DNA of 64,000 bases from Gossypium raimondii (taxonomy: Eukaryota > Streptophyta > Magnoliopsida > Malvales > Malvaceae): contig NC_068571.1 of assembly GCF_025698545.1 (NCBI RefSeq), positions 42,255,733 to 42,319,732 on the forward strand, in the 5' to 3' direction. The notes under the pieces are model-generated. The model made no database searches. It saw nothing but the letters and a program-made list of their open reading frames with translations, and had not been told where the DNA came from. Both the position numbers and the translations under genes were made by a program. Below, in pieces: positions 3,411-64,000 of the stretch (the stretch's first letter is position 1; each line of letters begins with the position of its first letter).

Positions 3411-5100
3411 TAGGGGTACTAATTACAACGGAACAAGCAAGGTGATGTCTTTTTGTTGTGAATATGTCTGTCTTTGCCGTGATTATCTTTTACAGAGCAG
3501 ATAGGTGGCTCAATGTCTGATATGTGTAACAAGTAGAAGTTAAAGGTTTTGTGACACATTTAGATGTGCTTAAGTAGTTCTACGAGGTTATGCAGCATCG
3601 TTGACATGCAGGTAAATCTCCGGATTCCCCAACAGGAAATTGAAAGTATAAACAGTATTTTGGAATAGGTTAGCAGTTAGGATCTGTTCCATGTTATCAG
3701 CTATTGTAATACAGAACCATCTAAAATTATCATGCCCTTTGCCTTGTAAGAGTTTTGTTCATGTTCAGGGTCAGTTTTATGAAGTGTTTCATGTTAGCAT
3801 CTTGTATATGGATTTGGTAACTTTACAGAAGGAAAATCAAAGTCCGCGATAGTTCAACTACTTTAGGATCCCATAAACAATTATCGAGAAACCGGTTCTC
3901 GGTTCCCAGTTTTTATCCGGTTCTTGCCAATTCTTCAGATTTCTAGCTTTATATGGTATATACCATGTTGAACTGTTAGACCAATTGGTTCCTGGTTGAA
4001 CTGGTTTCAAGCGGTCTGGTTGAACCATTAGACCAATCGGTTCCTGGTTGAACCGGCTAGTCTGGTCTGGTTTCAACAACATGGTTCAGTTTCAACTGGT
4101 TTGGTCCGGTTTTATGTACCCCATTGAACCATGAGACCAACCAGTTCCCTGTTGAATCAGCTGGGCCAGTTCGGTTCAGATATCAGTTATTTGAGAATTT
4201 TAGCCTTGCAGGGTTTGAAGTATTTGTATGAGGCTGTATTATGCTGATGAGCTAAGCTCACGATGACGTAAACATGTCTAAAATGGTGCAAGTTTTGCCG
4301 TTGTCACAACCTTCACACCAAAGCAACCAAAAACAGAAAGTCAGCAAACCTGACTGACTAATTCAAGTCGAGTTTCTAATAAAAGATCGAAGACCAGACG
4401 TTAATTACATGAAATGCATGTATAGGTCTTAATTTGGTTTAATTGGCACAAACTTTTAATGTTTATCATATTTTGTAAACCTTTGTGCACCATGTTTTGG
4501 TTTAAATGTGTGGTCTTATTTAGAGTTATTTTGGTATAAGTAAGTAGTGTTAGATTGTTAGGTAATGATTAATTTTGTTGGTACCGTTTCAGATATAATA
4601 TATTCGTCATTGTTCTTGCACCCATAGTTTCATATTAGTAAGTTAGTGGGAAATTTAAAATAAAAATAAAAACCATTTTAGATCATCTTAATTTGAAATT
4701 AAGTAAATTAGTCTCTTTTTTTTTATTTTAAGTAATAATAACAAAATTAGTTCTTGATATTTATATATTTTGTTAATTTGATCTTGATTCTAAAAATTTA
4801 ACAATTTTAACTTCAACATTATTATGTTTATAAAAATATTACATGTTAAATTTGTTAAATCATGATCAAATTAATAGAATGTGTAAATATGATAACTAAA
4901 TTTGTTATTATACTAATCAAATTTATGTAAAATTGTTGAAAAACAATGACGGTATAATCAATTATCTTTAATTGCTCGCTTTCAAAATTGATAATCCTTT
5001 TACCTAAAAGAGAAATTGTACTGTATTCAGAATAGAAGTTACAGGGAAAATTAAAAGAAGGAAAACCGAGTTTTGTATTAATGGATGAAGTTGTTTTACC
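3411..5100. other. Intergenic; 3' flank and degenerate repeats
   Basis: This holds the 3' flank of the PHD-Myb gene, then from about 3858 to 4180 a run of degenerate units rich in GGTTGAACCGG and GACCAATTGGTTCC. The clearest pair starts at about 3967 and 4019, a spacing of 52 bp. AT-rich sequence with no gene follows to 5100. The GGTTCAACC-type repeat is a familiar kind of plant dispersed repeat; I cannot assign it to a family. Confidence 0.6.
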
Positions 5101-5181
5101 ATTTGAAGTTGACATCAAACACAGAGGGAAAAAGTAAAATGATATTGCTTATCTATAAATGGTATCTTTTTTAAGTTAGAA

Positions 5182-5313
5182 ATGAAAAAGAGGAAATTAA
5201 GGGAAAGAGGAGTGGCTGCTGCATATATGCTTTCTGATTACTTATTTTAATGTCTTGGTGCTTTTATCTATCAGTTCCATATGAAGAAATCCCTCCGTTT
5301 TCAGCTTTCCAAG
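5182..5313 (+). pseudogene. Unit 1 of small secreted-peptide array: broken signal-peptide exon
   Basis: This aligns with the signal-peptide exon of the intact unit at 8905-9019. It shares the upstream TATAAAT (5154-5160), the AAGAGGAG stretch, the TTGGTGCTTTTATCTATCAG segment and the exon end CAGCTTTCCAAG before GTTC. In the frame matching the intact unit it reads KRSGCC, is soon interrupted by a TGA, and ends with PPFSAFQ. The start codon is not in that frame. Homology with the intact unit continues into the intron (about 5440-5490). No second exon follows before unit 2, so this is a 5' remnant of a duplicated gene. Confidence 0.7.
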
Positions 5314-6109
5314 GTTCAATTCTTTTCCCTTTCTAATAATTTTGGTTTTTCTTTTTTTTCTCCATCTAAATTTTAAATTTATCTATAAATATTAAGATTG
5401 AATTTTGAAAGTCTCACTATCGTATTAAATGTCAATTTAAATATGACAGGGTATATTTAAAATAAATGGATCAAACCGTAAATGTATAAACAAGGGTGAA
5501 CTAGAAATTCAATTTTGAGGGCTAAAATAAAATTTTAAAAATTTAAAGGTTGAAAGTAAAAGTAAAAATTTTATACACATAAGGTTTAAATTGAATATTT
5601 TATAATTGGAAGGGACTAAAGTTGTGTTGTCCATTTAAAAAGGTGGCCAAGGCCCTATCCCTTAGCTACGGCCATGCGCCAATACTTGCTATGTAGATAA
5701 TATGAATTAAAGGTGTTTATCAATGCTTTTCTTAAATCAGATCGGTCGTCGAATCGATGAGGTCATCGGTTCGTTAGTGGTAGGTTAGCCCATTGAATTG
5801 AGTGGAGTCATGGTCTTGGTTCGTCACTATCGTTATTGGATTCTCTCTTTTTAAAGAGAATTCAAATGTTGATGATGTTACCATTGAAATATTAATGTTG
5901 CAAATAAATCAAAAAAAAATTAGACTAATTGTAAAGAGATCCTAACTTTAGTTAAAAGTAAAAAAATGTCACGTGTTAACCACACAATAGGCAAATGTGT
6001 CATGTCAACAATTTATTAGTGGATTAATAGAATTTTCAATGACAATTACTGATTGGAATAATTTTCATAATTAGAGCAATTGTATTGACAAAAGAAATTA
6101 AAATTACTA

Positions 6110-7233
6110 TTTTAGGATAATTTATTTCACGTTTTGGTGCTTTTATCTACCGACTTTTAGCTTTTCAAGGTTGAAATCTTTTTAACTTTCTTTTTAATTT
6201 TAGGATTAATTGTATGATTGTATTCAACTTTCTTTGAGATTCTAAATTATTCTCAACTTGAACTGATGAATTCAAATCTTGGCAAGTTCGAGTTTGATTC
6301 AAAATTTAGAGCTCGAAATTTAGTTTAAACTGGATTGAATATTTATTTTTAAGCTTGAATTTAGCTTAATATATAATTAATCTTGGGAAACTCAATTAAG
6401 TTTTTACGTATTCAAGTTTGAGATTAACTCGATAATTAAGCTTAAGGTTAATAATATATATTAATGACAATAACATAATTTAATAATATAAAATTTTTCA
6501 ATATTGAAGATGAAAAGCTTAATAAGGTTTGGGAGCAATTCAAACCAAGTATTACTAAGCTCAAATTTGATTCGAGTAGCTCAAACTCAGCTTCATATTT
6601 CCCAAGTCTAATTTGAGCTTTTTCAATTTGAACAGTTGAACTCAAGTAACTTGCGAGCATTTATATCTCATTTACACCCCTAATTTGTATTGTATCAATC
6701 GAGCTTTTTTTCTTCTTTGTTAAATATAAATATTAATAATCTAGAGATTAAATGTCAATTTGGATTTAACATAAATGTTTAAAACTCAGGATCAATTTAT
6801 AATCAAATGCATACTTACCACAAGAGCATTTTAAATTCGACATATTAGAAAAAAAAAATACAGTGATATTAAAATTTATGAGGGTCTTTTTATAATATAA
6901 ACATATTCCAAACTGTCGGTTTAGTAAATACACGTATATTAATAATTTGATCCATATGTTTTAATTATATTTTTTAAAATAATATTAAAATTTAAATAAG
7001 AATTTAAAATCCGGACTTTTGTCTGAAAATGTTTGATGTAATTAACTCAAATTCAAATTTGCATATAATACTAATTTGATTTCAAACGCCACTTTACGAC
7101 AGATAATTTGGTTGCTCAAAGCTCGGTCTGTCGTAGCCTGCAGCAGAAGAAGGATCCGGTACCTGGTACACCGCCACCACAACAAAATACACCAGTGCAT
7201 ATGAGGCTTCGGTCCCCTCCAAAACCAACCTAA
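6110..7233 (+). pseudogene. Unit 2 of small secreted-peptide array: truncated exon 1, open exon 2
   Basis: Exon 1 (about 6110-6169) keeps only its 3' part (FWCFYL, then TTTTCAAG before GTTG) and lacks about 20 bp found in unit 3, so the signal peptide is lost. Exon 2 (7103-7233) is open: after the acceptor CGACAG it reads DNLVAQSSVCRSL, then QQKKDPVPGTPPPQQ, and ends RLRSPPKPT and TAA at 7231-7233. Differences from exon 2 of unit 3 are often synonymous and indels keep the frame, so it was under coding constraint before or after the duplication. A foldback element (6234-6682) sits in the intron. It could still be expressed from another upstream exon; none is visible. Confidence 0.7.
6234..6682. 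mobile_element. Nonautonomous foldback element, GGGTGTAAATGAGC-ended family (copy A)
   Basis: A copy of a repeat rich in GAGCTCGA and AAGCTTAA motifs. Its right end reads CTCATTTACACCCCTA and it contains the AACATAATTTAATAATATA core shared with the copies at 12.2 and 14.0 kb. The left end is degraded. It lies in the intron of peptide-array unit 2. Ends of the AGGGGTGTAAATGAG type are common on plant MITE-like elements; superfamily not determined. Confidence 0.6.
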
Positions 7234-8850
7234 ACCACCGTAGCCGGCAGAAATATAACTTGAAATTTGAAAAAAAAAAAAAAAAAGATTATGAGGAGCT
7301 ACTTACTTTATGCATCAAAATAAAAACTCCCCATTACAAGCATTTTTCATTGTTATTTCTTCCCTCTGTTTGTCATTAATTATCAGTTTTATATGTTTAA
7401 TGGAGTAGTAAGACCAAATATTTACCATCTGTCTTTTTTAATAATTACTTAAGTTTAACTATTATATTTTTAATTACAATAATTAACGTAAAATATTATT
7501 TTTATTTTAATTATTTAATATAATTAAAATATATCAATTTGTCAATTTAAATACTATAATAGAAAATTTTCAAATAATAATTAAAATTTAATATATTTAA
7601 CATACAATATAATTTTACTTTCAGTAATTAATGTGCAATAATATTTAGAAATCGGTTCTCGGTTGTGAATGAAGCTTTGGCACAATCGACAAAAGTTGAG
7701 CTTCCAAATTTTTAATATTTGGGTTTGAGTTTATTTTGCGTAAATCATGCGTGGGTTTTGTCTATAGTTATTAAGTAGGTAATGTCTGATTTATGTTTTG
7801 AAATGATTTAGTTCGTATACTTAATTTGATTATTTTTATAATTTATTGTCCTTTTCAAATGTTAAAATTTCAGTATTCATTAAGCAATAATTGTAAAATC
7901 TATTAAGTTGTGTTATTTCTAAAATTTGATATAGCAAGCACATTATCATATGAGTAATATTGTATCAACTTATTATTTCCATATATTACTCACTAAAAAT
8001 CAATATCAATTATGCGTTGAGATTGAAATTTTAAATTTGAAAAGTATAAACACTTAAAATGATCCAATTGAATAATATAGACTAAATCTATAATTGTATG
8101 TAGGCCTTATAAGCAAGTAAAACCTAAAATCGATCCGAACTAAGGTGTTTGAACGGTTTATGGAATGCAAGTTTAAAAATTGAAGTTACCTGAAACTGAA
8201 CCAAATTTTATTTTTTATTTAATATATTATTATTTTAAAATTTTTATTATATAGAAATAAAGATTTTATATTTAAAATATTGAAAGTAATTTATAAGTTC
8301 TTGAAAAGAATTTTAGAAATATTTTATGAAAAAGTTTTGAAATTTAGTCAAATAATATTTAAAAGCATAAAACAAAGCACATTTGATCAAAATAAGTCTA
8401 AATAATATTGAAAAATTGAGAATTGAACCAGCGGAATTGAGAATCATGATGAATAATTCATAAAATCTAAAAACCCAACTAAACCGAATTGATATCTCCC
8501 CTAATTGTATGCATAATGCATGCCGTATAACTAGTAATTGAATTTACCCAAATGAATTTAACTATTATCATTTGGGTCAAGATCAAAATTAATCATTTTG
8601 AAAAGTATAGGGACTAAGATTGATCAAATTAAAGTATAGTGGTTGAATTCAAGACTTTCACAAAACACAAGAACTAAAAGCAAAATTTAACCTAATCAAA
8701 ATAGAAGTCCCTGGGAAATAAAGCCTTGCAAGTTGAAGTTCTAGGCTAAGACTTTTCGATATTCATAAAAAAAGAAAGAAAAGCTGAAAATTCGAATGGC
8801 TTACTATTTCAAGTTCACATTAAGAGAGGAAAAGTAAATTGTTTTTGTCG
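7234..8850. other. Spacer between peptide-array units
   Basis: About 7234-7390 is still homologous to the sequence downstream of exon 2 in unit 3: both read on to AAGCATTTTTCATT and TTCCCTCTGT, then TGTCATTAATTAT. This is probably the old 3' UTR. The rest is AT-rich with no coding potential that I can support. A cluster of GGAACCGG-like short repeats appears near 8140-8480. Confidence 0.5.
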
Positions 8851-8851
8851 C

Positions 8852-8858
8852 TATAAAA
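8852..8858 (+). promoter_or_regulatory. TATA box of the intact secreted-peptide unit
   Basis: TATAAAA lies 47 bp before the ATG at 8905. The same position in the sister units holds TATAAAT (5154-5160 and 11959-11965), so the box is conserved across the array. Transcription would be expected to start near 8880-8890, which leaves a very short leader and excludes the out-of-frame ATG at 8876. Confidence 0.55.
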
Positions 8859-8904
8859 TGGTTTTTAGATTTGTTAATGAAAAAAGAAAGCCAAAGAAAA
8901 ACTG

Positions 8905-10043
8905 ATGAGAAAAAGGAGCAATTGCACCATTTTTGCTTTCTTATTTCTTTATTTATCATTTTGGTGCCTTTATCTCTCAGTGGTAGCTGCAACAATCCCT
9001 CTCTTTTCAGCTTTCCAAGGTTTTCTTTTTCGAATTAATTGCATCCATCGCGTCTTTTCATCGGTTTAGCCATTAGTTTGGGTGTTAAATGTTGGTATAA
9101 ATTTGATATACAGCTATTTAAAATACATGGATCAAAATTGTAAATACGTGTGTACTTACTATACCGGCAATTTGAATAAAAAAAAAGCATAATGACTTAT
9201 TTGGCCCTCAGACTTTGCAAAAAAGTCATTTTAGCTCTCTATTTATTCACATCTTTTTGCCCTTAAACTTGCATTGTTTATCAAATCACCCTAAAATAGA
9301 TAGAAAAGTTAACGTCGGTTAATTTTGTTGATGTGGCATACATGTGGATTGCTACATCAGCAATTAATTAATTTTTAAATGTTAAAAAATTCAAAATTTA
9401 TTAAATTTATTAAATTATTTAAACTTAATTAAAAAAATTAATTTTAAAAAAAAATTAATTGCTAACATGGATACATATGAATGTTACATCAACAAAGTTA
9501 ACAAACATTAACTTTTCCATCCATTTTGAGGTGATTTGACAAACAATATAAGTTTAAAAGCTAAAATAGGCGAAAAATCGATAAAGTTGGAGAGTTAAAT
9601 AAGTCATTATGTCATAAAATTTATTATTCTTCTATCACATCAAATATATTTAAATTGCATGGGCATTTTGAATATAACGTGTTAAAAATCATCATTATTT
9701 TTTATTTCATCAAATATATTTATGCAATTTGTAAGCGTCTATTTACTATTTGATCTATATGGTTTATATCATATTTAAATTAACATTTAACTCCTAAATT
9801 AATAGTTAGGCCAATAGAATGATTTAATTAATATAATATTCTATTTTGAATTTAAATTTTCAATGATAGTTTGGTGTGGTAATTTGATTTAATAAATACT
9901 CCACACCCACGGCAGAAAATCCGGTTCATCAAAGTTCGGTCCTTCGGAGTTTGCTGCAGAAGAAAGATCCGCAGCCCATTAAGTCGCCGCTACCAAATAA
10001 GCCACCGCAGCAAAGGTATCCATCCCCTCCGAAGCCAAACTAA
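8905..10043 (+). CDS. Small secreted proline-rich peptide precursor (array unit 3, intact)
   Basis: Two coding exons, 8905-9019 and 9916-10043 (115 + 128 nt, phase 1, GT-AG), encode 80 aa. Exon 1 is a complete signal peptide: MRKR start, a hydrophobic core (IFAFLFLYLSFWCLYL), and a likely cleavage after SVVAA. Exon 2 encodes a charged and proline-rich tail: ENPVHQSSVLRSLLQKKDP, then PIKSPLPNKPPQQ, ending RYPSPPKPN. There is no Cys after the signal peptide. The layout (signal peptide, variable region, short conserved Pro-rich C-terminus with basic residues ahead) resembles plant signalling-peptide precursors such as CLE, CIF or IDA, but the C-terminus fits none of them fully. Support: exon 2 of unit 2 shows many synonymous differences and in-frame indels. 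The intron carries a foldback element (9188-9611). Function unknown. Confidence 0.65.
9188..9611. mobile_element. Foldback MITE in the intron of the secreted-peptide gene
   Basis: Two arms of about 185 bp are inverted copies. Both outer ends read CATAATGACTTATTT, and inner matches include AAATCACC, GAAAAGTTAA, TTTGTTGATGT and GCAATTAATT. No clear target duplication flanks it. A related copy with a decayed left end lies at about 62935-63290. It has no coding capacity. Confidence 0.75.
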
Positions 10044-11123
10044 ACCACCGCAGATGAGAGCTACTTTCTGCATCAAAAGAAAATCTGAGTTTACAAGCAT
10101 TTTTCATTATTATTTCTTCCCTCTGTCTGTCATTAATTATTAATTTATTAATTTGCCATTGGTCTTTTTTGAAAAAATAATAAAATTCTTGAGTGGCATG
10201 TAATTTATTTTAGTATTATCATTAAAATATAGGATAATATAATTTTTTCTATCTATACTTTTTTTTTTTTTGCTTACTTTGGTGTTTGAACTTGACAACT
10301 AGATTCATTGGTTCCTAAAATTAGATTGTTTCAAAAGTTGATGATGTGAACAGAGTTTTTGAAACATTACTGGATTGGTTGGTTGAACTGATTGGATCGA
10401 GAATTAATCGGTATGCTAATCCAAATAAAAGGGTTAAATTGAAGAAATTATTCAAAACCGGTGAAAATCAAAAATTGGTATAAAAAATAGTAGTTGGACC
10501 GGTTTAATTTTTTTTAATTATGAGTTTTTAATCATTTATATAATTTTCGTTGCTTTAGCAATAGAATCGATCAAACCAATTGAATTGAGAATCAATAGTC
10601 TGATCGGTTCAACCACCGATCCAATTATTAGAACACTATACGTGACACTCTAAGATTGTATCAAGTCATCACCTAAAAATTTATATATATTTTTTTATTT
10701 TTCAAATGATGATGTGGGACACGGTCTTCACATCGTCAAACTTTTATATTTTTCATGTTCAGTGATTAAAATGAATCTAGTTGTCAAGTTTAGGTACCAA
10801 ATTGAATAAAAAATAAAGGTACTAAAGTGAACGTAATTGCTAAGTTTAAGGATAAAAAATTATATTATACCTTAAAATAAATATACAAGTATATTATAAT
10901 GAGAGGTTAACTTGAACCATAAATGATTTATGTTATTTGGAACTTTTTAATAGTTTTTTTTTATAACATTAATATCATTATAAATTGTTATTATATGATC
11001 TGCTCTTTTTGATACAATGCCTAAAACTATACATAACCTCTCCCAACAACCCTTAAATAGGAGGATAATACGTTTCAACGCACTCAAACCCACGTCCTCC
11101 TGTATTGACAACAATGCCAATAT
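10044..11123. other. Array spacer with a decayed foldback element
   Basis: About 10044-10150 is 3' flank homologous to that of unit 2. From about 10260 to 10860 lie inverted arms reading TTGAACTTGACAACTAGATTCATT on the left (with a gap) and AATGAATCTAGTTGTCAAGTTTAGG on the right. The same arms occur in the element at 34720-35115. GGTTGAACTGATTGG-type degenerate repeats interrupt the middle. No gene seen. Confidence 0.55.
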
Positions 11124-11550
11124 TAGAGGTGCTCATGGGCCAGGCGGCCCGCCCGAAATATGGAAGGGTTTGGGTAAAAATATAGGCCCGAAATATGGGC
11201 TTGGGCAAAAAAATGAGGCCCGATTAAAAAATGGGCCGGGCCTCGGGCACCACTTTTTTGGCACGGGCCCGGCCCGGCCCGAAATAATAAATATTTTTAT
11301 TTTTTATTTTTTTATTTTAAAATACTTTTAAAATACTTTTTTTAATTTTTTTAAAATACTTTTTTAATTTTTTTAAATTTTAAAATATTTTTAAAATACT
11401 TGTTTTAATTTTTAAAATAAATTTTTGGTATTTATTTAAAAAACGGGCCGGGCTTATGAATTTTTTCCTGGGCCGAGCCTAGGTAAAATTCTAGGCCCAT
11501 ATTTCGGGCCGGGCCAAAATTTTTTCCGGCCCAGCCCATGAGCACCTCTA
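11124..11550. mobile_element. hAT-type MITE with perfect 8-bp target duplication
   Basis: A 427-bp element begins TAGAGGTGCTCATGGGCC and ends GGCCCATGAGCACCTCTA once read through the decay. Its arms are GGCCCGG-rich. It is flanked by perfect 8-bp direct repeats GCCAATAT at 11116-11123 and 11551-11558. An 8-bp duplication with short inverted ends is typical of hAT elements. The AT-rich centre has no coding capacity. Confidence 0.9.
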
Positions 11551-11958
11551 GCCAATATCAATCAAACTAAAACTTAATGGACACCTTTTTAATAGTTTAA
11601 ATCATGTATTTGTGTTGAAAATAATCTAAGTACAAAAGCATGATTTATACTCACATGTTTTAAAATTAAACCTTTAACAAAAATTATAAACGTGTATTCC
11701 TCAAGTAAAGGAAGACCGTCATCCTGATCAAAAGTTTCGAGATTAATTTCGCCATCGAAAATGTCCAGCAGATTCTGATGGATTCAAGGGTGCAGAGGAA
11801 GGTGTCTTTGAGAAAGATTCTTAAATAACCCCAATAATTTCTTGGCGGTCTGTTTTAATAACTACTCCCATCGTACTTTGATAATGTTGATTGTATTTCA
11901 AGTTCACGTTAGAAACAATGCAAAATAATTATTGAAAGGTAAAATATGATTGCTTTTC
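11551..11958. other. Spacer before array unit 4
   Basis: AT-rich sequence with no supported gene. From about 11890 it becomes homologous to the upstream region of unit 3 (shared TTTCAAGTTCAC), that is, to the promoter side of the secreted-peptide units. Confidence 0.5.
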
Positions 11959-11982
11959 TATAAATGGGGTTTGAAGTTTCAA

Positions 11983-12079
11983 ATGGAAAAGAGGAGCATT
12001 ATTTGCTTTGTTTTTGGTGCCTTTATGTACCAGTCGTAGATGCAACTTGCAAGAATCCTCCAGTTTTCAGCTTTTCAAG
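11983..12079 (+). pseudogene. Unit 4 of small secreted-peptide array: broken signal-peptide exon
   Basis: This is homologous to exon 1 of unit 3 and has its own TATAAAT at 11959-11965. The ATG at 11983 opens MEKRSIICFVFGAFMYQS and then meets a TAG. A small net insertion relative to unit 3 shifts the frame before the shared exon end CAGCTTTTCAAG and GTTC. No exon 2 was found downstream; the intron-derived sequence is split by several transposons and the homology stops near 16650. It is a 5' remnant. Confidence 0.65.
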
Positions 12080-12166
12080 GTTCAATTCTTTAACATTTTT
12101 TTTCTTTAGCATTAATTGGACTGAGTTTTCTTCAATTACGATCGGGATTTTAAATTACTCTTTCAA

Positions 12167-14038
12167 TTTTATTAAGGGTGTAATTGAGCTAAAAATAATT
12201 TAAATATTGGTAAATTTGAGTTTAAGTTTGATTCAAAATTCGGAGCTCGAGACTCAGTTTAAGTTCAATCGAATGTATATTTTTAAGTTTTAGCTCGAGC
12301 TCGATTAAGTTCATACCTTTTTAAGTTCGATAGCTAAACTTAGGTTAATAATATATATTAAAAGTAATAACATAATTTAATAATAGAAAATTATTTAAAA
12401 TATATATTAAAATGAAAAGTTCAATGAAACTCACAAGTTGTTTAAGTCAAGTATATTATCAAGCTCAAATTTGACTCAAGTAAACGACTTCAAATCGATT
12501 TGAAAATTTGTATATTATTTCTTGGAACTTTAGTACATTGAAAACATATTTCCCACGAAAAATATCACAATTCAAAATAAATAAATAATAAAATAATAAT
12601 ACATAATAAATACAATATTAAACTGACCCTAAGACTCTAAGAAGCCAAAGAAAAACTCCAAAAGAAGTGGAAATGAGAGACAACTCTTTTGTACCTATTA
12701 ACACAAGAAATAAAAATGTGTTAGAATGCATAATAGAATAACAAAACTAAAAGTAAAAGAAAATCTAATGTTAGAATCAAAGAAAATAAACTACCTAGTT
12801 AAAAAAACCTTGAAAAATAGAAAATAACTTTAATTTTTGTTTAAGGTGTTCCTAATGTGTTAAAATCATGGTAAATAAAATTTTATTTAGAAATTTTCAA
12901 CACAAAATTTCACCCACAAATTATTTTTCAAATTTTCACTTGCTCAAATTTTATGATACAGGAGGGGTAGAAGAAGATGATCGCATTCAAGTTGTTTGAC
13001 TCAAGAAAAAAATATTTGGATCTAACCCGAAAAGAAAAAACCAAACAAATTTAGGAAAACAAGAAAAACAAAGAAAATAAAAAATTTAAGAATAAATAAT
13101 AAATATTCAAAATAATAACTAAATAAAGAAAAGATAAAATAAAGAGTGGAGATGGATCGAATAAACCAATTGATATGATAGATAGATAAATGTCCAATTA
13201 AACCTTTTGAGGTATAATCCCAACAAACTCAATTAATGCTAATCAACTCTCCAAGAAATAATCCTTAACAAATAGAAGGATAAAGTATGAATTCTTACGA
13301 CTCCTTGAAGAAATTCAAGAATAAAATTGCTTCTAAAAATCACAAGAAAATAATTTTGCACAAAAGAAACTAACTCTCGAAGTTGAAAATTTCATTAATG
13401 AAAAACAATTGTGTCTCTAAACAGTGAAGATGCCTCTATATAAGCTAACTAGGTACATTCAAATTAAACTTTCAAGTATATTTAAACTCTAATTAATCTA
13501 AATAAGAAGTAATTTTAAACTAAAAATATCTAAAATTCGGAATAAATAAATGATAAAAAAACATAATAAATACGATATTTGATCATATATAGTAAAAATT
13601 AAGCCTAAAAATTGAACTCAATATGATTTAAACTCGAATTAAAAGCCTGGAACTCGTAATTTTCATAATAATCCAATCCAGAAATTTTGCTTGCGCAATC
13701 TTCACTAAAATAGTTATAACTTGAGCTCCCGAACTCGAAATTAAGTGATTCAAAGTGTGTTTTGAAGTTAAAAGATAGATCTTTGAATGCTATGGATACA
13801 TCTCAATATATAAATACCCGGATACCATCCAAAAAGTCATCGCAAGTCAATTGATTTTTCAAACTTGAAAATTGGCAGTTTCGGTAAATGAAATTGAATA
13901 AATTTCACCGCATCTGTGCATGTATCAACTCAAGTTGCTTGAGCTCGGCTCAGTTCGATAGTTACATAATTGACTTCAACTTTTTTTGAGTCAAACTCAA
14001 TTAATTTGCAAATACCGGTGTCTCATTTACACTCCTAG
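12167..14038. mobile_element. GGGTGTAATTGAGC-ended foldback element (copy B), itself interrupted
   Basis: The left end reads GGGTGTAATTGAGCTA at about 12174 and the right end TCTCATTTACACTCCTAG at about 14021-14038. It shares its interior with copies A (6234) and C (14035). About 1.4 kb of unrelated sequence (about 12482-13927) sits inside, flanked by ACTCAAGT at 12474-12481 and 13928-13935. That may be an 8-bp target duplication, or chance, because the host repeat is itself rich in ACTCAAG. I did not recognise the inserted segment and it has no open frame. Confidence 0.55.
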
Positions 14039-14220
14039 TGTAATTGAGCCGAGCCTAAATACTGGTAAGCTCAAGCTCGAAACAAATTTTGGAGCTTTAT
14101 ATTCAACTCAAACTCAATTAAACATCTAATTTTAAGCTCATATGTATTCAAGCTTAAACTTAACTTGATAACTAAGCTTAGGGTTAATAATATATATTAA
14201 GAGCAATAACATGATTTAAT

Positions 14221-16239
14221 TGTCATCACTGAATTTTGCCCGGTTACGGTTTTGGGCCGGGTTGGTCTCGTATGGGCCCTATGATTGGGCCCATTAGGAT
14301 TTAATTTTGGACTTGTTTTAGCCTATTTTTAATTTTTGTTTTAAATATTAATAAAATAGTAATAATAAAATTTTGAAAAAAAACAAAAATATAAATTACA
14401 TTTTAGCCCCTAAACTTTTCAAAAATTACATTTTGACCCCTATTTTTTCTAAATTTACATATTAACCCATAATAATTTGTAAATTACATTTGGGCCCTAA
14501 ACTTTCTAGAAATTACATTTTGGCCCTATATTTTCCTAAAATTGCACTTTTACCCTAGAAATTTCGCATCTTCTGCAGTTTGGTCCTTCTCGACTTGTCA
14601 AATCGCCGCAATCAGCAGCCGAGCGTGCTCCTCCTACCTCCAGCTACTCCAGCAGCCTCCCTAGGCCATGATTGCTCCACTGCCACCTGAAAACAAAGAA
14701 GAAGAAGACAAAATTGAAGGATTTAAAAGAAGAAAATGAGAGGCCCAATAACAACAGCCCAACAGCCAAAAAAAGAAATAATAATAAAAGAAAGGCCCAA
14801 ACAGCCCATAACTTTAGGTTTTGGTAAATTCTTGAACTTTTAATTTTGTCTAAATATTTAAATGTTGTCTCGTTTTTAATAATATTGCATATTTTTAAGT
14901 ATTTTTTATTTTGTATTTATGTTTTTTAATTTTATTTTATTTTATTCGTTAAATTCGAACAATTTTGATGCATGAGGCCACGAACCGATTTAGCATTAAG
15001 TCATTGATTTCATCGCTATGTTGGGTGAATATCGATGGCTCGTATTAAATACGGGACGCCCTTTTAAAAAAAAACGAAGATATTCAAAAATTCTCGTGTT
15101 TTAAAAGAATCATGATAAAATATTAAGTTGAATCGATTTAACACTAATTCGATGATTTCATCGCCATGTAGGGGTGAATATCATTGATTCGTGTCAAATA
15201 CGGTACCTTTAAAAAAAAAACTAATCGTGTTTCAAAAATTTTCATGTTTTCAAAATTTCTCGTGTTTCAAAAATAATAATAAAATTTCCCGTGTTTTATA
15301 TTCATTTTTTAAAAAAAATATCGTGTTTCGTAATTTATCAAAATTTTTGTGTTTTTAAAACAAAATTTTGTGTTTCAAAAATTTTCGTATTTTCAAAAAA
15401 ATTTCCCATGTTTTCAAAAATTCCCGTATTTCAAAAATTTTCTTGTTTTCAGAAAAAAAAATCCGTGTTTTCAAAAATTCCGGTATTTCAAAAAATTTCG
15501 TGTTTTCAAAAAAATTTCATGTTTCAAAAATCCTCGTTTTTTCAAAAATTCCGGTATTTCAAAAATTTTCATGTTTTCAAAATTTCTGGTGATAAAAAAA
15601 TTCGTGTTTTCAAAGAAAATTTTGTGTTTCAAAAATCCTCTTGTTTTCAAAAATTCCGGTGTTTTAAAAATTTTCGTGTTTTCAAAAAAATTTTGTATTT
15701 AAAAAATTTTCATGTTTTCAAAAAATTCTCGTGTTTTAAAAATTTCCGTGTTTTCAAAAATTTTCATGTTTTTAAGAATTATCGTGTCTCTAAAATTCTC
15801 GTGTTTTAAAAATTTTTCGTGTTTTCAAAGAAAATAATTGTTTCAAAAATCTTCGTGGTTTAAAACAAAATTCTCGTATTTTGATCGGATCACGATTAAC
15901 TATTAAATTGAACTTGTATGTTTGAAAATTAAGACAACGCGCGTTTAACGAGATACCAATTTTGGGCGTCGCGAGGGTGCTAATACCTTCCTCGCGCGTA
16001 ACCGACTCCCGAACTCTAATTTTCTCTGGATTTTCACGTAGACCTAAAATTACTTTTTTTTTTAGAAAAAAATTTAAAAAATAAAATTTTCTTCTAAAAA
16101 GAGAATTTATTAGGTGTCCGATCACACCTAGAAAAAGGATCGGTGACGACTCCTTTTTCAAATAAAATCGAGACACTGTTTTTAAATTTTCAATAATTAC
16201 TTCGACCAGCGCCCGTGCTAAAATTTTTAGGTCGCTACA
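14221..16239. mobile_element. Solo LTR of an LTR retrotransposon (probably Ty3/gypsy)
   Basis: A 2,019-bp element starts TGTCATCACTG and ends GTCGCTACA, with a 5-bp target duplication TTAAT at 14216-14220 and 16240-16244. No internal retroviral domains lie between or beside the ends, so this is one LTR left by recombination. It contains a phrase near 15965-16010 (GGTGCTAATACCTTCC, then CGACTCCCGAACTC) that I associate with plant Ty3/gypsy LTRs of the Tekay/del kind; lineage is inference. A 0.8-kb stretch of short CGTGTTTTCAAAAATT-like repeats lies inside. The clean ends and intact duplication suggest moderate age. Confidence 0.85.
15040..15880. repeat. Short-unit degenerate tandem repeat inside the solo LTR
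   Basis: Dozens of variants of a roughly 17-20-bp unit, CGTGTTTTCAAAAATT with small changes, are repeated head to tail. The repeat produces spurious open frames rich in Phe, Lys, Ser and Val; these are not a gene. It lies wholly inside the LTR. Confidence 0.85.
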
Positions 16240-16459
16240 TTAATAATATAAAAATACGTAAAATATATATTAAAAATAAAAAGCTTGATAAGGCTTGGGA
16301 GCCTTTTGAGTCAAGTATTATTAAGCTTGAATTTGATTTGATCAATAGCTCGAGATACTTGAGCCCAGTTCAATAATTACCAAATTGAATTCAATTTTTT
16401 TCGAGTCAAATTCAAGTAATTTACGAGCTTCAATTGCTTATTTACACCCCTAATTTGTA

Positions 16460-18529
16460 TGATATAAATTAGGGTTTTTTTGTAACATAACATAAAAAAT
16501 GTTTAAAACATGTGGATAAAATTACAATCAAATTTGTATTAAATTGGACATGTTAGGAAAAAAAAACCTTGTCAATAAAAATTATGAGAGTTTTTTTTAA
16601 TATAAGAATATTCAGATTATTCGATTAGTAAATACACATATTAGCATGTTTTTTAGTTTTGCTTATGCATGTAATTTAGTTTTACAAGTGATTTTTGGGA
16701 TGATTTTGTTATTGTCCTCTTTAGTTTGGTGAATGCTCGATTCTTTTGTCGATTTTTGCTCACTGCTTTGGACCATTCGGGGTTGATTTTCTTATTGTAT
16801 TAAGTGCTTGCAATCACTCTAGGAATGCCGTGTTTGAGTTGTGATAAAGCCAATTGTCAATGTGTCATAATATTCTATTGATGCTGAGGTTAAAGCTTTT
16901 GCTATATTAATGGAGTTTGTCCTTCATCGTCTATGATGGATATTTGTTATTTTTTTCATGAATTGTATGATTCCATTCATTGAATGAATTAATGAATTTA
17001 TCTTTACAAAAACAAAATACAGTAAAATTTAAATTTTAATATCTGCAACTTTTATTTCACCCTCAAATTATGATTTCCATTATTAAAAGAAATTGGCCCC
17101 TAACAATGTGGTCAAGGGTTTGATCTCAATTAATGAGAATAGAATGTATTTTCGTGACTAGCCATTTATCTTTTCGAAAAACTCTTACGACGAAGAGATT
17201 AATCACTATTACGAATGGTATAAAAAAGATTCTTGGGTTACTTAATATTTTTACGGGAACACCTTGGTATAATGGATTGAAGTGAAATTCACACCGTACA
17301 TTAATTTAAAAACTCTCTCATTTAATTCACGTCCCACGTTGAAAAAATTGAAAATTAAGTTTAATCGAAGTATTTAATTCGATTTATACATTATTTATTT
17401 AATTTGTTTTGATTTTCGATTTTCGATTTTCGATTTTACAAACTAAAATTGACAATTATATTGACTGTCATAAAATAATTTATATTTGGTTGTTGAAGTG
17501 TCTAAATCATTATTGTATGTAAGTTTTAAAACACCAAGGACCACCTCATTCATATTTATTGAGCCCTTGGCATGTGTATTTTCAGGAAACTGAAAATGTT
17601 TTGGATTAGAGTATCATTCATGGGGTTATTATTTCTATTTTTTTTATGTTTGTTTATGAAGATTAATTATTTTAATATTTGTGATCGATCATTTTTAATT
17701 ATCGTCTTCAAAGTTTAAATTTGAGTTATTATTTTAAAATATAACAGTTTTCAATGCTTGTTACAAGAATTCTTTTAAGAGTAGAGATTATTTATATAGT
17801 GAAATTTAAACTTAAAATTTATTGATAATTATAAATCAAAGTATATAATTTTAATGGTATGTTTTGAATAATTATTATAACGAGCAAAATAATTTTGTAA
17901 AAGTCAAAACTTTTATTTGACAACTAAGGGGAGGAGAAAAATCTTGGTTTTATCGTTGTTGTGCTACCAAGAAACATGTTATTATGACTTTTGATCATTA
18001 ATACGATTTCGTGTAAATACAAGATTGGATTGGATATCATGAATGTTTCTTTTAAACTACAAACCCGAAACACCTATGATAATTATTTCTATCATTTTGT
18101 TGTGTTAAAATAAACAAAATCGATTAAATTAATCCAATCGATTTAGTTAATTTTGGTTTGAACGGTTTTTTAATTATGATTTTAGTTTTGTTGATTATTT
18201 CAATTAATGATCAATTTTGAATTTTCAAATTCACTCGATTGAAATAGAAAGAATTAGTTTAATGTTTTAATTTTTAAAAGATGAACTTATATTTTTCAAG
18301 CTCAATTAACTAAAGTCTGTTAACCAACCGATTTAGAATTGGTTTAGTTATGTCGATTTTTGAGCTTTAATTCAATTAGGTCAATTTTTATATATTATGG
18401 TTAGTTAAGTCGACTTGATTAAAGAAAAAATAAATACTTGAAAAGCCGAATGCTCTCCCCTACTATCACAAACTATATTACCATTTCTAAAAATAAACTA
18501 AAATAAAAATTAGAACAGTTAGATGGTGT
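16460..18529. other. Intergenic, decayed repeats
   Basis: About 16460-16650 continues the intron homology of the peptide array (compare 6680-6950). About 16660-17000 looks like the 3' part of a decayed retroelement, perhaps a LINE: it has protein-like but broken frames and ends with a short A-rich tail. The remainder is AT-rich with nothing I can name. Confidence 0.4.
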
Positions 18530-21222: not shown

Positions 21223-21980
21223 TGAATAAAAGAAATTTTAATGAATAACTAATTCTTTCTTTTAGTTATTCTTTTCTAGTCTATTAATAACAAAATGAAT
21301 TCTTCCAATGTATAAAATAAAAATTCCAATGGCTTTTGCTACTCTAACCGTTCCGACCACGATTTTTCTTTTTTCTAGGCATTTCATTTCGCCTTGAAAT
21401 AAGAACTTGTATTGATACTAGGTATCAAAAAAAGCATATTAACTAAAATAAATGAGTAAATAGAAATGGATAAATAAATAGTGGGTTCCATCATTTCTAT
21501 GGTTACCTCTTAAATAGTGAGGTCCTTTCTAGACACCGAAGCTCATTCCTTCATTTAATTGGTAACTTGTACAGTTCACACTCTTCGACTCTACTCATAA
21601 ATTTTCCAGTAATAGATCTTTCACAACAAGATCTATCTTATACAGTAACAGTATGTAAGGATGAGGATTAATTGGGCAGCTAACCCTGTTAGTCCATTCT
21701 TTGCAAGAGTCGAAGCATAATCTTTTTGCTTTTTAAATAGGATTTTCCCCGCTTAATGGATAAGCATTTGCTACCAATGGGAAATTTTTTTCTCATCTTA
21801 AATTCCAAGATTGGATTTGCGCCAATGGGAACCATAAATTTCATACACAATAGAAGGATATGGTAGATCTATTTTTTTTAGATAGTGAACGGAAGAACCC
21901 CATTCTATTCACTGGTACGGATTGTTGATACTGAAAAAGTTGTTTCTTTTTTCTCAACCCATGATCTGAACAAGTCGCAC

Positions 21981-22094
21981 ATACACCCTAGTACATGTTC
22001 CTCGGTGATAAGAACATCCCTCAAGAGTAGGGGATTTCGTGACATTTCTAATTGGCTGTCTTACATTTCTAATAAGTTGTTTAATAGTTGGCAT
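21981..22094 (-). pseudogene. rps12: Plastid rps12 exon 1 (trans-spliced 5' exon)
   Basis: Minus strand: [17 protein letters not shown], then KSPTLEGC and RGTCTRVY, matching the 114-nt 5' exon of ribosomal protein S12. The start of the trans-splicing group II intron (GTGCGACTTG on the minus strand) follows directly. Substitutions include Arg to Glu and Pro to Ser. In plastids this exon is trans-spliced to exons elsewhere; the nuclear copy cannot work. Confidence 0.9.
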
Positions 22095-22296
22095 ACTGAA
22101 TCATATACATAATAGACTGGTTTAGATCGATCCTAACCAGATGATTCTGAATTACTTCTTTTTTTATTTAATAGATTAATAAAATATTAACCCCTTAGGC
22201 TTAAGTTAAGAAAGAAAGGAAGAAGATGGATTAAATCAATCTTAATTAAATTGTGGATTGGTGTTAAATCATTGCTATTGCTATTTGTTTTTTAAC

Positions 22297-23522
22297 TTAT
22301 TTAACCGCTACAAGATCCACAATTCCATGAGCTTGGGCTTCTGTTGCTAACATAAAAACATCTCTTTCCATGTCTTCAGATACAACCCATAAGGGCTTGC
22401 CCGTTCTTTGTACATAAACCCTTGTGAGGCTTTTGCGAAGTTTCAATAGTTCTTCCACTTCCAGGATAAGTTCTCTTGTTTGTGCCTCATAAAAAGAACT
22501 AGCAGGTTGACGGATCATTACCCTGATGATATAACATAATAAAAGGTTCTTCTAACTCACACAATAAGGCGAGAAGAATAGCTAAAAATAGCTAAAGAAT
22601 AATAAGAAAAAAAAAGATAGAATTGAACAACTGTACAGACATTTTTTGTGCATTGCATACGGCTTTACAATGGAATTCTCTTTTTTCTTTCATCGAAAAA
22701 AGAAAAAGAGAAAATATAGAGAGCGTCTATTAGACCCAGATTACTAAATAATCCAATTACCACCCTTATTTTTTTATTCCTTTTTTTCAAAAAAGTTCAA
22801 AAATACTATGATGGCTCTGTTGCTTTATATATTTATTTCGTTTGTAATTCAGCAATCTCAAAGTTTTTTTTTCAAAAAAAAAAAGAAAAGAAAAAAATAG
22901 TCTTTTTTTCATACTATTTTATTTTATAACATAAATATCGTTATAAATATTGTTAATAGCCTCAGGTGTGAAAAGAAAAAAGTTTGTGACGCTGAGATGG
23001 GCCCACGAAAGCTAATATAAAATTGGAAATGCCCTTTCTCTCATAGTACTACACTTTCGATTTCTCTCATACTACACTTTCGATACATAATCTAATGTTT
23101 TAAAAAAAAGAAATAAAAAAAATTCATATCTTCGAAGTGCCATGCTATTATTACTTACTAATTCCTATTTCATATGGCGAAGGCATAGTCTTCTTTTTTC
23201 TTTCCATCAAATAAAAAAACTCATTGGCGTCGAGCGTGAGGGAATGCTAGACGTTTGGGAATTTCTCCTCCGGCCAGGAGAAAAGATCCCATTGAAGCAG
23301 CCAATCCTATGCATATTGTATGCACATCTGGTTGCGCGATTTGCATAGTATTATAAATAGCTACTCCGGATATTACCCATCTGCCAGGAGAGTTTATAAA
23401 CAAATACAGATCTTTGGTATCATTCTCTATATTGAGATACCATGAGACCAATAAGTTGATTCGAGATCTCACTATCAACCTCTTAGCCTAAAAAGAGTAA
23501 TCTTTCTCTATAAAGTCGGTTG
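22297..23522 (-). pseudogene. clpP: Plastid clpP remnant (exons 2 and 3, exon 1 missing)
   Basis: Minus strand. Exon 3 is about 22297-22524 ([16 protein letters not shown] to GIVDLVAVK). Exon 2 is about 23231-23522 (NRLYRERL, then [32 protein letters not shown] and KRLAFPHAR). The catalytic Ser region GLAASMGS and the HQP/RQP histidine region are recognisable, but the catalytic His of exon 3 reads Arg (IRQP for IHQP). Exon 2 carries a CAA-to-TAA stop and a 2-bp loss near VSLNIE. Upstream, the group II intron 5' end (GTGCGACTTG, minus strand) is at 24421-24430, but only TATACG of exon 1 precedes it. Confidence 0.9.
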
Positions 23523-24761
23523 ATTAGGATAAAATTGTATCCCTTAGTAGTCGTACATGCACCTTTTGATGCATACGGTTCAACAAAAATTGCAAAAAAA
23601 ATCAATGTGTAGATTCCAGCCATCATTCGTTTTTTTTCTAGTGTGCCTTTTCTAACTTCTAATTTCTAACGAAAAGATTCTTTCTTACATTTTTTAAATA
23701 AAATGAAATTCAAAATGAAATTAAAGAAAGATAAGTTTTGTCCCGTTTTCCTATAATCTATAATATAGAAAAAAATCGCTAAACTTGTCGCACAAACTTT
23801 TTATTGATCTATATTTTTTTCATTGGGATTCAATCCAAATCACGATGTCATTTTCTTGTTCCTGAATGGGTTTCATCAATTTTTTATTCAATTTTTTTAG
23901 GTTTATGCTCTACTCCAAGTAAAGATCCTCCCAATTTTGATTTGCGCATATAGGACAAATGCCCTAATACCACATCTTTTTGCTATGATTTCATTTCCTT
24001 TTTTAATTTAATTTAATTCTATTTTCTTTCATGTTTTCCACCAAATATTCAACGTATTTTTCATATTATTCGATTGATTAATAGCTTGAAATCATTCTTA
24101 TTTCTATTTCAAATTTGTAAATAAAAAATATTTATGATTATGATATAGGTGGCAATCATAAATGTATTACCAATTGAGTTTTTTTCTAAACGGAGCCTGG
24201 ATGCTTCATTTTTTAGGTCCAACCAAGCCAACCATAAATCATTCTAAGTGAAAATATTAATATGGATACCCCCCCCAAAATGAAATGGATCCCTAATTGC
24301 ACTTCATTACACTTCATGCTACAAATTTTTGATAATTCAATCAGTCTTTTTTGGGAGAAACAGGGGATATCTCGATCTGACGAGAGAACGAGGGAATTTC
24401 ATATGACCCAATATATTTGACAAGTCGCACTATACGGCCTCATATTTTATACATAGATAAAATAAGGACATAAAATAAAGAAAGACAAAATGAATGAATG
24501 AGAATTCTTACCAATAGGTTCTTTGAATGATGAACAAATAGGGATGTGTTCATTCATAAAAAATAGGACCAACCCCCATTGTGTATTGATACTTATCGAG
24601 TTAGAACAGATCTGCTTCTTTTTTTTTTCTTTTGAGACGAATTCTTCCCTTAATTACTATTAGAATAGAACAAATATTAATCATTTATCCGAAAGAATCC
24701 ACTGAAAAGGGGAGGTATTCCAATGCAATAAAGTTACATAATGTCTTTTTTTTGTTCATAA

Positions 24762-25702
<941 letters not shown>

Positions 25703-58528: not shown

Positions 58529-60568
58529 TCACGGTTCGAGCTTCAAGGAAACAACGCGCGATTGTCTGTTCCGTTTTGCCACCTTGAGAAAGACTAACGA
58601 AAGGCATGAAGGTGCCCACCACGGCCTGCGAACTTTTTGCTCTCCCTTTAGACAAGCCACTGAAGAATACAATTCATAAATATGTATATCAATAAAGGAC
58701 AATAGCTACGAGGTGTCGAAGAATACAGGCAAGAAAAAATGTTTTCTTGATCGGAAAGCAATTGAATATCGTTAAACCAACTGGACATGATATACAAAAT
58801 ATCTAAACCAATCACTCAGTGTATTCCTATTTTATCAATTCATATGCAAAAGGCAAAGCTGCTATGACATAAGTTGGGTACGGGAAGTGATTTACGAGAG
58901 TGGGTAAAATATTCACGCTTTATAGGTACATATGATGCACAATGAAATGACCCGAAGCTAGACAACTACTGCGTGCGGCAAGAAAAGCTATATATATACC
59001 TTTTATTCGTCTAAGTTCCTTGCATAGAGTGATGAAGTCTCCCCATTTCATATGGCATCGTCTTATAAACCGAAGAATCTGTTCAGTTGTAAACATAGAC
59101 ATGCCTTCTAGGTATTCCCCATTGACACCGTTTTCTTTGAAAATCAGACGATAGCTACCGAGATTTATCTCTTCCAACCACATCCCGACATCCTGCCAGA
59201 AGTGAAAGATCACAACACAAGAGCATGTTATTGAATCAAATGTACTTACCGAATGTTTTTCTGTCAAACATCAAAAGAACATGTTACAAAATGTTCCCCA
59301 ACGGCTTCAAGAACTTTTTGCTTAGACAACATCGTAATTTGGTTACACACTTGCAGCATAATTACGTATATTGGCTGAATTATACAACGACAAAGTGCAT
59401 TTGTGGCTTAGTTGATTCATCGAAAACATATAGTTGTAGAATTCCTAATCATTTAACAAGCACATAGAAGTCTTCTAAGGAGAATGAATATACATGTATA
59501 TACATAGCTAATCCACCTCAAAAACAGTTAATTATGGGTAAAAGTACCATAAAGGCCTCTGTACTAGGCCCCTATTAAAAATTGGCACTTGTACCATAAA
59601 GGCCCTCGATTAAAAAAATGGGCAAACTGGTCTTCGTACATTTAATCAAAGAGCAAATTAGTTTTTTATGTTAAAATTTTCATCTATTTTTATTGTTAAA
59701 AACTTGCGTCTCTAACAGAATAACTAGACAATGGCACGTGACGTGCCATGTGTACGTCATGTTAACATATAAATACCAGTTTTTAACAGTAGAAATGGTT
59801 GGAAATTTTAACCTTGGGACCAGTTTGCTCTTTTATCTAACGTATAAGGACTAATTTTCCCATTTTCCTAATCATTTGATGGGCACATACAAGTCTTCCA
59901 AGGAGAATGAATATATATTGACATAGCTAGTCCATCTCTAAAACAGTTAATTATGGCATCTCACGCAAGTCAATAGTATGTCTCATAACTTGAAAATAAA
60001 CAGCTCATCATCAATGATGAATACCCATCTTCTGCACCTGCTGGTATTTACTGTCATCTTCTTGAAAAAGTCTACCTGAATTGGAATTTAGTAAAGAGGC
60101 AAATCCAAGATCCCAACCTTACTCAGAAATCCACAGGTGGGAAAAGAACTTTCCTTTTTCTTTCTCTTTTTCATTTCTTCTCTACACTCATTAAATTGAC
60201 AACTTGTATGAAACCAGGGGGTACTTTATCAGAAATGTTGAAACAACAGATGCTGAGTTAAGGAGAAATTAAGAAATTTGTCATACAATTTCTGCAGATT
60301 GCAGGTATCTAAACCATATAGACAGTATGGACTTGTAGTTATGGTTGGACAGCCACAGATCTACGAAATTTCAACTTATCCACTCAACCGGCCTCATCAT
60401 TACCTACATGAACAACTTTTTAATAATGATGTTCATTGTTGCAAATGCAAGCTTTGTGACACAGACTAAAAACAATTGTAGAGAAGATTCATTACGAGTT
60501 ACAATAATGTTACAAAACCACAATCTAGTAATCAAGTAACATACCTGCGGGGCAGGTGGAATAACCAT
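58529..60568 (-). CDS. Small SAM-domain protein
   Basis: Three coding exons on the minus strand: 60545-60568 (24 nt), 59000-59192 and 58529-58659, all GT-AG and in phase, giving 115 aa. Exon 1 gives MVIPPAPQ; exon 2 gives the sterile alpha motif (DVGMWLEEINLGSY, FKENGVNGEYLEGMSMFT, then ILRFIRRCH); exon 3 gives a basic tail (VACLKGEQKVRRPWWAPSC, ending RQSRVVSLKLEP). The SAM domain mediates protein-protein contacts. I recall Arabidopsis At3g07760 as a short SAM protein near OBE1, but cannot confirm the match. A leader exon probably ends at about 61256 (minus-strand TGTTGAG before GTAATA). Confidence 0.85.
59442..59956. repeat. Duplicated block and foldback element in intron 1 of the SAM gene
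   Basis: About 95 bp at 59442-59537 (TTCCTAATCATTT, AAGTCTTC, AAGGAGAATGAATAT, AAAACAGTTAATTATGG) recurs directly at 59865-59956. Between the copies lies a foldback element starting GGTAAAAGTACCATA and centred on ATGGCACGTGACGTGCCAT, related to the MITE at 27259. The large direct repeats are far longer than any target duplication. Confidence 0.75.
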
Positions 60569-61720: not shown

Positions 61721-64000
61721 AGAGAAAGATGAGAAGAAATGAAAACTAAAATATATATATTTATAATACAATATTAAATAATTGTTATTTGATATAGAGT
61801 CCTTTAATTTTATATGTCAATCAACATTTGTCTTTAATTATTATTAATAATTTTTTAAAATAAAATAATTTTAATTCATCTATAAAAAAGTTAGAATTAT
61901 ATAAAAATCTTAAAATCAATCCTTATTTATTATTTCTTGTCTCATGCATTCAATTTTCAATCTAAAATTAAATTATATTTTGTTATCTTTTCTTAAAAAA
62001 TGAATAAATTAGTTCATATGTACTAGTTCAAAGAACAAACAAAATCTATCTATTAAAAATTCATCTGTATGCCTCACGGGGAACGCCACGTTTAATTATC
62101 TGGATATTTTCTCCACCATGTCATTTTTTTATCAGTGAAAATGGATGAAAAGAATCTATTTATAATATATATAAAAAAATAGTTTATAAATGTATATATA
62201 TTTTTAAAAAATAGTAACCAAAGTGAATCAAAAATGAATGGGACCATCCTATCCATGTCTAGATTATGAAAGTACAAGGAGGAGATTACCATGTAATAAG
62301 TGGGGCCCAGTAGAGACCCATGATCTAAAATAAAAAAGTGGATGGTGATGATGCGATAGATTCCAAGAGCTGCGTATTATTTTGAATTTTTATTAAATTA
62401 TTTAATATCCAATTAAAATTAAAGTAATTCTTAGGACTACCAATTGATTTGGCTCCTTCTTCCTGAGTAAAATCCCACCCTATAAATTTATGTTAATGCA
62501 TGGAGTGATATTAAAATCGATAAAAAGTAAAATTAATTTGATTAAAAGTATTCATGAATCAGATTAAATTTGAGATAGAGGAGTAATTGGAGGTTGTTTA
62601 CTGATAATTGGTACACTCCACTAACAACAAACAAACCAAACACCATTTAACCGTTTTTGCATCGTAGGTCCCTAATATTTTATGCACCAAGAGTTTCATT
62701 ATAACAGTGGTTTTTTTCATGGATTGATATTGGTGCGATTCCTAAAATTAATAAACAATTAGCTCTATTTAGTCTATAGATTGCCCATCAACCATCAAAG
62801 GTAATTTTGGTTTATGGAGTAAATAAGGGTCAAAATAAAATTTTAAAGTTTGGAAAATATTTATTTAAAAATGGTTAAATTGAATACTTTGCAATTAGGG
62901 GACTATAATTTTTGGGCTATGGCCCAACCTGTCCCAAACTATGCTCATATTTATCAAATCATCCTAAAATGGATGAAAAATAATTAAAGTTTGCTAACTT
63001 TATTGACATGACATACATGTGGATTGCCAAGTAAATGTCATGTAAGCAATTAATTAATTTTTAAAAATTAAAAAATTATTTTTTAGAAAAAAATAAAAAT
63101 TAAAAAAATTAAGTAATTGCTGATGTGGCACACACGTGGATTGCAAAATTAACAAACGTTAACTTTTTCATCCATTTTTTAGTAATTTGACAAAATGTAA
63201 ATTCGAGGGTTAAAAGAGACGAAAAATTAGATGAAAAGATAAAATGATTCTTTTGTAAGGTTAACGAGTCAAAAAGTCATTATACCTTTTATTTATGTTG
63301 AATTCTTGCATTCAAAAAGTCAATTTTATTTTTATTTCATCAACATGACCACATTTGCATTCAGATGTATATTTAATTATTGATTTTAATTTTACTACTA
63401 AAGTAACCGATCACATTATTGTCATCATTTTTTATCTTACCAAAATTAATCTATACTATTTTTTAATCTCTTGGTTAAGTTGATGTCGACCTCAACTGAG
63501 TCACCAACTCGGTTAGAAACATTATGAATATGCCCTTTCGTAATTAAGATAAGTTATATTATTTAAGGATATTTTAATTTTTTAATTCAAAAACCAATAA
63601 AAACATGCATAAAGTGGGGTTTAAAGCTAAACTGATTGTATTAAGTAAAACTTTAATTTACCACTCAACTAATGTTTATTTTGTTAGTTTTACATTTTAA
63701 TTTTATTATGCACACTTCATTACTTTCATCATTTGTGTATATGTTAATAATATATTTGATTGAGTTGGTATCACAAGTTAACTCGACACAAGCTTAAGAT
63801 TGATGACAACACAATGATAAACAATTTAATCTGTTTTTTAATTTTAATATCGTTTACATTTCATGTGTTATTATTAATTAATTTTAAATCATACGTTTTA
63901 TTATTTATTAGATATTATTTTTAAACCCCAAATTATATTCTATATTTATAATTTTCATAGATAAAATTTTTAAAATTATGTATGGAGTCAAAATTTTAAG
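61721..64000. other. Intergenic to window end
   Basis: AT-rich with no supported gene. About 62935-63290 is a foldback element related to 9188-9611: it shares TTTATCAAATCA(C/T)CCTAAAAT, GACATACATGTGGATTGC, GCAATTAATTAATTTTTAAA and the end AAAAAGTCATTATA; its left end is decayed. Confidence 0.5.

Follow-up and report, generated by a model that had tools for sequence, protein, structure and literature searches.

Plant genomes harbour small secreted-peptide genes in clusters, and two bodies of work offer the closest comparisons for the locus treated here, a tandem array of a tiny two-exon gene in a 64-kb stretch of Gossypium raimondii DNA, the whole of which is referred to hereafter as the window. 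The PROSCOOP genes of Arabidopsis possess two or three exons and encode precursors of 72-117 residues with a signal peptide and no cysteine; they form tandem clusters in which remains of transposons occur, and annotation had overlooked two of them (PMC6382344). The derived SCOOP peptides carry a C-terminal SxS motif and, in the portion of the literature available, are reported from Brassicaceae only (PMC8448819). The work on SPADA treats plant peptide genes of one or two exons, chiefly cysteine-rich, which gene callers generally miss; exon 1 carries the signal peptide and exon 2 the mature peptide, introns reach up to 1500 bp, and pseudogene members are also discussed (PMC3924332). Tandem two-exon peptide genes overlooked by annotation are documented in Arabidopsis and Medicago (PMC6382344, PMC3924332). 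The suggestion of the initial annotation that ordinary gene callers would miss the genes of the present array agrees with what the SPADA text says of one- and two-exon peptide genes as a class (PMC3924332).

The reading we consider probable on balance is that the array is a small birth-and-death cluster whose gene, with an architecture like that of PROSCOOP, encodes a secreted peptide precursor rich in proline, a single copy (copy C, 8905-10043) being intact. Set against the available description of PROSCOOP, copy C has two predicted exons and 80 residues, within the 72-117 range, and the array shares the tandem arrangement and the transposon remains. C also has a hydrophobic leader that may serve as a signal peptide and a tail (residues 31-80) free of cysteine. 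Among the differences are the two cysteines in the leader of C and a tail rich in proline where SCOOP is serine-rich. S-x-S is absent from both the C precursor and the second exon of copy B, so the locus is not a SCOOP as the accessible text defines the motif; the criteria of SCOOP membership also include perception by the receptor MIK2. The likeness to the genes described in the SPADA text resides in a leader in exon 1, a tail in exon 2 and an intron of 896 nt, and the difference in the predicted tail of C being free of cysteine. A cluster of one intact and three wrecked copies is nothing unusual among plant peptide genes; the kind of gene is already known, and the peptide matches no family tested here.

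The window is AT-rich (31% guanine plus cytosine); feature coordinates are collected in Table 1. Copy C is the sole intact copy of the four (8905-9019 joined to 9916-10043). Its reading frame is preceded by in-frame stops at 8875 and 8878, and the predicted junction 9019/9916, as proposed in the initial annotation, has GT-AG sites and joins the exons in frame, leaving the ATG, splice sites, frame and stop intact over 81 codons, stop included, to give a precursor of 80 residues. These features suggest that copy C is probably a functional gene, one that would be transcribed and spliced as predicted.

The array was delineated by comparing positions 4600-17000 against the whole window, with 100 dinucleotide shuffles of 4600-13000 (plus strand) as the chance control. 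Four related first exons (A, B, C, and D, with donors after 5313, 6169, 9019, and 12079) and two related second exons (starting at 7103 and 9916) were found in one orientation, the whole array spanning approximately 7 kb. The promoter and first exon of A and C align at 70% over 239 columns (5096-5326 against 8801-9029; 96.9 bits, E 5e-21), the highest-scoring shuffle reaching 35.6 bits, and the second exons also align at 70% (7096-7240 against 9909-10050; 62.6 bits, E 1e-10), against a shuffle maximum of 26.5 bits. Copy D is tied to C through exon 1 (12012-12091 against 8959-9028, E 1.7e-8) and to A around the TATA box (11935-11995 against 5130-5194, E 7e-7). B and D share the end of exon 1 and approximately 400 bp of intron (6155-6578 against 12065-12482; 65%, E 7e-26), and it is this common stretch that suggests they are sister copies. 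The 3' flanks of the two second exons are identical at 74 of 85 aligned positions (7304-7389 against 10062-10146; 86%, E 1.6e-21). The similarity is concentrated in the promoter and exon 1, with the A/C match ending 10-13 nt beyond the donor, and in exon 2 (from 7 nt before the acceptor) together with its 3' flank. When the C product was searched by tblastn across the window, D scored E 0.003 and the first exon of B E 0.017, and nothing other than pieces of A-D had E < 0.02. The similarity is beyond chance and the tandem array is real.

Several elements of the initial annotation are borne out by these comparisons, namely the related first exons at four places and the two copies that retain a second exon with a homologous 3' flank. 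Its claim that all four positions carry one and the same cassette goes too far, because B has neither a TATA box nor a start codon; no TATAAA was found in the 250 nt before the B donor, and the approximately 160 nt examined showed no ATG in frame. Nor does exon 1 of B end as had been stated before GTT, the sequence there reading TAGCTTTTCAAG and not CAGCTTTYCAAG, and the intron start said to be shared by all copies amounts to only 10-13 nt between A and C and to about 400 bp between B and D. The ATG at 5182, formerly taken as the start of copy A, does not lie in the family frame; it is 5199 that aligns with the ATG of C, and there the sequence reads AAG, with a TGA following in frame at 5235. 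In copy D, the ATG at 11983 runs into a TAG at 12037, and no second exon was found in the 64-kb tblastn search with the C product. A, B, and D are accordingly relics. The second exon at 7103, which shares its phase and stop with that of C, could belong to either A or B, B being the nearer. The description of a mostly decayed, two-exon tandem cassette therefore stands, and a birth-and-death family of secreted peptides would fit it, but with C as the single intact copy.

Repeats do occupy the introns, as had been noted; the palindromic, transposon-like element in the C intron (9238-9581) has a relative at 62950-63296 (68%). Part of the B/D intron match is itself a dispersed repeat, with more pieces at 14057-14220 and 16243-16641. 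Overlapping alignments had hinted at a target-site duplication for an insertion between 14220 and 16243, but the flanking letters showed none and the idea was discarded. The introns of B and C also match in inverted orientation (6904-6995 against 9178-9085, E 7e-10).

Whether exon 2 is coding can be judged from two copies only, B and C, which are both in phase 1, have 43 and 42 codons, respectively, and end at a common stop. Their MAFFT alignment contains one gap, of 3 nt. Over the 42 aligned codons, there are 9 silent and 18 residue-changing differences, giving NG86 estimates of 0.33 for nonsynonymous (dN) and 0.85 for synonymous (dS) divergence; by codon position the differences number 10, 15, and 16, which leaves third positions without a strong excess. 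In neutral simulations, in which either exon was mutated at random to the observed divergence without indels (both parents, 8 gap placements), the chance that an exon 2 whose frame had stayed open would carry so few amino-acid changes was 0.002-0.018, and a variant run under a somewhat altered criterion put it at 0.3-0.5%. For the first 21 codons, which are free of gaps, the same kind of simulation yielded 0.005-0.007, and for exon 1 of A against C (35 codons, leaving out A's TGA codon) it yielded 1.7-2.3%; all of these chances come from small samples and are uncorrected for multiple looks. The sole gap being of 3 nt and the amino-acid changes being fewer than in neutral simulations, the comparison supports the view that exon 2 is, or at least was, constrained coding sequence.

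The predicted product of C begins with a leader whose mean hydropathy reaches 2.1 in the best 15-residue segment near the start, and the -3/-1 rule makes cleavage close to SVVAA likely; residues 31-80 hold 12 prolines and no cysteine, with an isoelectric point (pI) of 10.3. An SPP motif occurs once each in C (residue 75) and in exon 2 of B (residue 38). CLE, CEP, IDA, PIP, PSK, tyrosine-sulfated (DY), CAPE, and systemin peptides arise from short secreted precursors with a peptide motif, and regular expressions for the core motifs of these families had no match in the C or B product. Extensin-type cell-wall proteins are marked by SPPP repeats, and a motif scan found no SPPP in either product. 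Solved structures gave 0 matches to the C product at E up to 1, and four short strings of it had no match in a text search of a paper library. Literature searches bearing on the peptide returned no description of it in titles and the beginnings of abstracts, most subscription journals lying outside their coverage, and the accessible part of a review of plant peptide hormones contains nothing resembling the C product (PMC11756074). Pattern searches for related loci gave 12 matches in viral contigs, 0 of them confirmed, and 79 in bacterial and archaeal genomes, 1 of them confirmed, neither collection including plant genomes, so that the negatives carry little weight. The one confirmed match, a stretch of Pelagibius, aligns at 45% with residues 14-51 of C, which fall largely within the hydrophobic leader (E 6e-6, reckoned against the candidates alone), and was judged a chance likeness after 141 bases of it had been viewed.

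A number of observations count against a functional precursor gene and must be set beside the evidence for it. The leader alone proves nothing, because a hydropathy of at least 1.9 near the start is reached by 28 of 271 comparable ATG-started stretches of the window (at least 38 open codons, both strands, with C's own and nested ATGs included); secretion of the C product, as the initial annotation had it, is hence plausible from the hydrophobic leader, yet such starts are not rare here. A Pfam profile search of the 80-residue product returned 0 families at E up to 1. The last 16 codons of exon 2, including the SPPKP ending, show no significant constraint by themselves (chance 0.23-0.25), so that constraint on this very end is not demonstrated. 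Similarity also extends beyond the exons, the B and C introns keeping a direct match (6933-6989 against 9736-9790, E 5e-6). Exon 2 differs at 41 of 126 sites between B and C and the 3' flank at 11 of 85 (Fisher p 0.001), a comparison that favours the flank, its block being the best-matching stretch picked by BLAST. This contrast could reflect fast change of part of exon 2, a functional flank or gene conversion. The likeness of the flank (74/85, beside 85/126 for exon 2) would itself be compatible with a functional element of the 3' untranslated region (UTR) or a gene-conversion tract.

The most substantial of the alternatives, though an unlikely one in our estimation, is that all four copies are pseudogenes of a family that was once functional, C being merely the latest to die and open by chance. 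Three of the four copies are indeed broken, and a neutral exon 2 at the B/C divergence retains an open frame in 22-33% of simulated runs (8 gap placements, without indels), for which reason an open frame alone is weak evidence. What such a view has to accommodate is the survival in C of the ATG, the splice sites, the frame and the stop together, over 81 codons, as well as the constraint in the B/C exon-2 pattern, although that constraint may predate a loss of function in C. A different objection makes the two exons the extremities of some larger gene, or assigns them to a non-coding transcript or to another reading frame; in each case the true product would be something other than the 80-residue peptide. 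Besides the better-conserved flank, with the bias just mentioned, it can call upon frame 1 of C exon 2, which is also free of stops, and upon an ATG at 8879 in C that opens a second frame through exon 1 and then for 21 codons into exon 2. The reading from this ATG (phase 2) was set aside; spliced to exon 2 it stops at once in frame 2 of B, and it stops in A, leaving a reading that may apply to C alone. The two remaining exon-2 frames of B contain stops, for which reason the main frame is preferred; the exons of C join in phase into one open frame, and the B/C changes in that frame leave more residues unchanged than neutral change would. We regard this objection as the least probable of those considered, and quite doubtful. 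Slightly less so, and still improbable, is the proposal that a real gene encodes not a receptor ligand but an antimicrobial peptide or a small cell-wall protein rich in proline, an account that coincides with our own as far as secretion. The basic tail with its pI of 10.3, the 12 prolines in 50 residues and the one SPP motif common to B and C would suit it; the lack of SPPP, the cysteine-free tail and the failure to match Pfam at E up to 1 would not.

The array arose by local duplication and decayed through repeat insertion, loss of starts, stops and indels. If the precursor-gene reading is followed, exon 1 would supply the export signal and exon 2 the basic, proline-rich, cysteine-free tail; the precursor would enter the secretory pathway and be trimmed, with possible proline hydroxylation, to a short apoplastic peptide, which may act on a cell-surface receptor as SCOOPs do. 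A more daring extension, which we offer tentatively and hold to be rather unlikely, would see in C the sole local survivor of a lineage-specific set of apoplastic signalling peptides, a Malvaceae counterpart of SCOOP, with a proline-rich core ending in SPPKP in place of SxS, a receptor of its own and a rapid turnover of copies. Should C be expressed, it would represent a secreted-peptide precursor of unassigned family and a small worked case of how a cluster grows and decays. The relics serve in addition as paralogues for locating constraint, the first 21 exon-2 codons appearing constrained and the SPPKP end not shown to be so.

Table 1. Features of the two-exon array, in window coordinates.
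Feature	Position	Strand	Basis or remark
Copy A, promoter and exon-1 relic	5096-5326	+	TATAAA at 5154, donor after 5313; 70% to 8801-9029
Copy B, truncated exon-1 relic	6116-6169	+	6116-6149 matches A at 83%, E 9e-4; adjoins B/D match
Intron, B exon-1 relic to exon 2	6170-7102	+	Acceptor ACGACAG before 7103; repeat in common with D intron
Exon 2 of B (or A)	7103-7233	+	43 open codons and stop; tblastn 57% to C exon 2, E 9e-9
3' flank homologous to C flank	7304-7389	+	74/85 identical
Copy C, TATAAA	8852-8857	+	53 nt before ATG
Copy C, predicted exon 1 (ATG to donor)	8905-9019	+	38 codons and one base; hydrophobic leader
Copy C, predicted intron	9020-9915	+	896 nt, GT-AG; sequence at predicted junction
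Palindromic transposon-like element in C intron	9238-9581	+	Self-inverted match 73%, E 3e-50
Copy C, predicted exon 2	9916-10043	+	Proline-rich tail ending PSPPKPN; stop TAA at 10041-10043
Copy C, 3' flank, probable 3' UTR	10062-10146	+	86% to 7304-7389
Copy D, exon-1 relic	11983-12079	+	TATAAA at 11959; frame broken
Copy D, intron start, homologous to B intron	12080-12482	+	Window comparison

Elsewhere in the window, a 201-nt unit (67 codons) is duplicated to 1.9 copies at 1881-2262 inside an open frame of 422 codons, which has a PHD-finger match below threshold. Tandem repeats with nested periods of approximately 18, 35, 53, and 71 nt occupy 14982-15882; the open frame they include, 194 codons long, is rich in F, K, S, and V, and the region most likely represents satellite DNA instead of a gene. 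Rfam returned five matches at gathering scores, consisting of MIR7502 on both strands and three plastid elements at 21.7-24.8 kb. The MIR7502 precursor match (59669-59813) scores 115.8 and 85.5 bits on the two strands, as expected for a long inverted repeat; there are papers that name both miR7502 and Gossypium, which is compatible with the Malvaceae mentioned in the initial annotation. The plastid elements, matching the rps12 3' UTR, the clpP intron and the clpP 5' UTR on the minus strand, belong to a plastid-derived insertion at 21737-25605, within which an open frame of 186 codons (25045-25605) resembles psbB.

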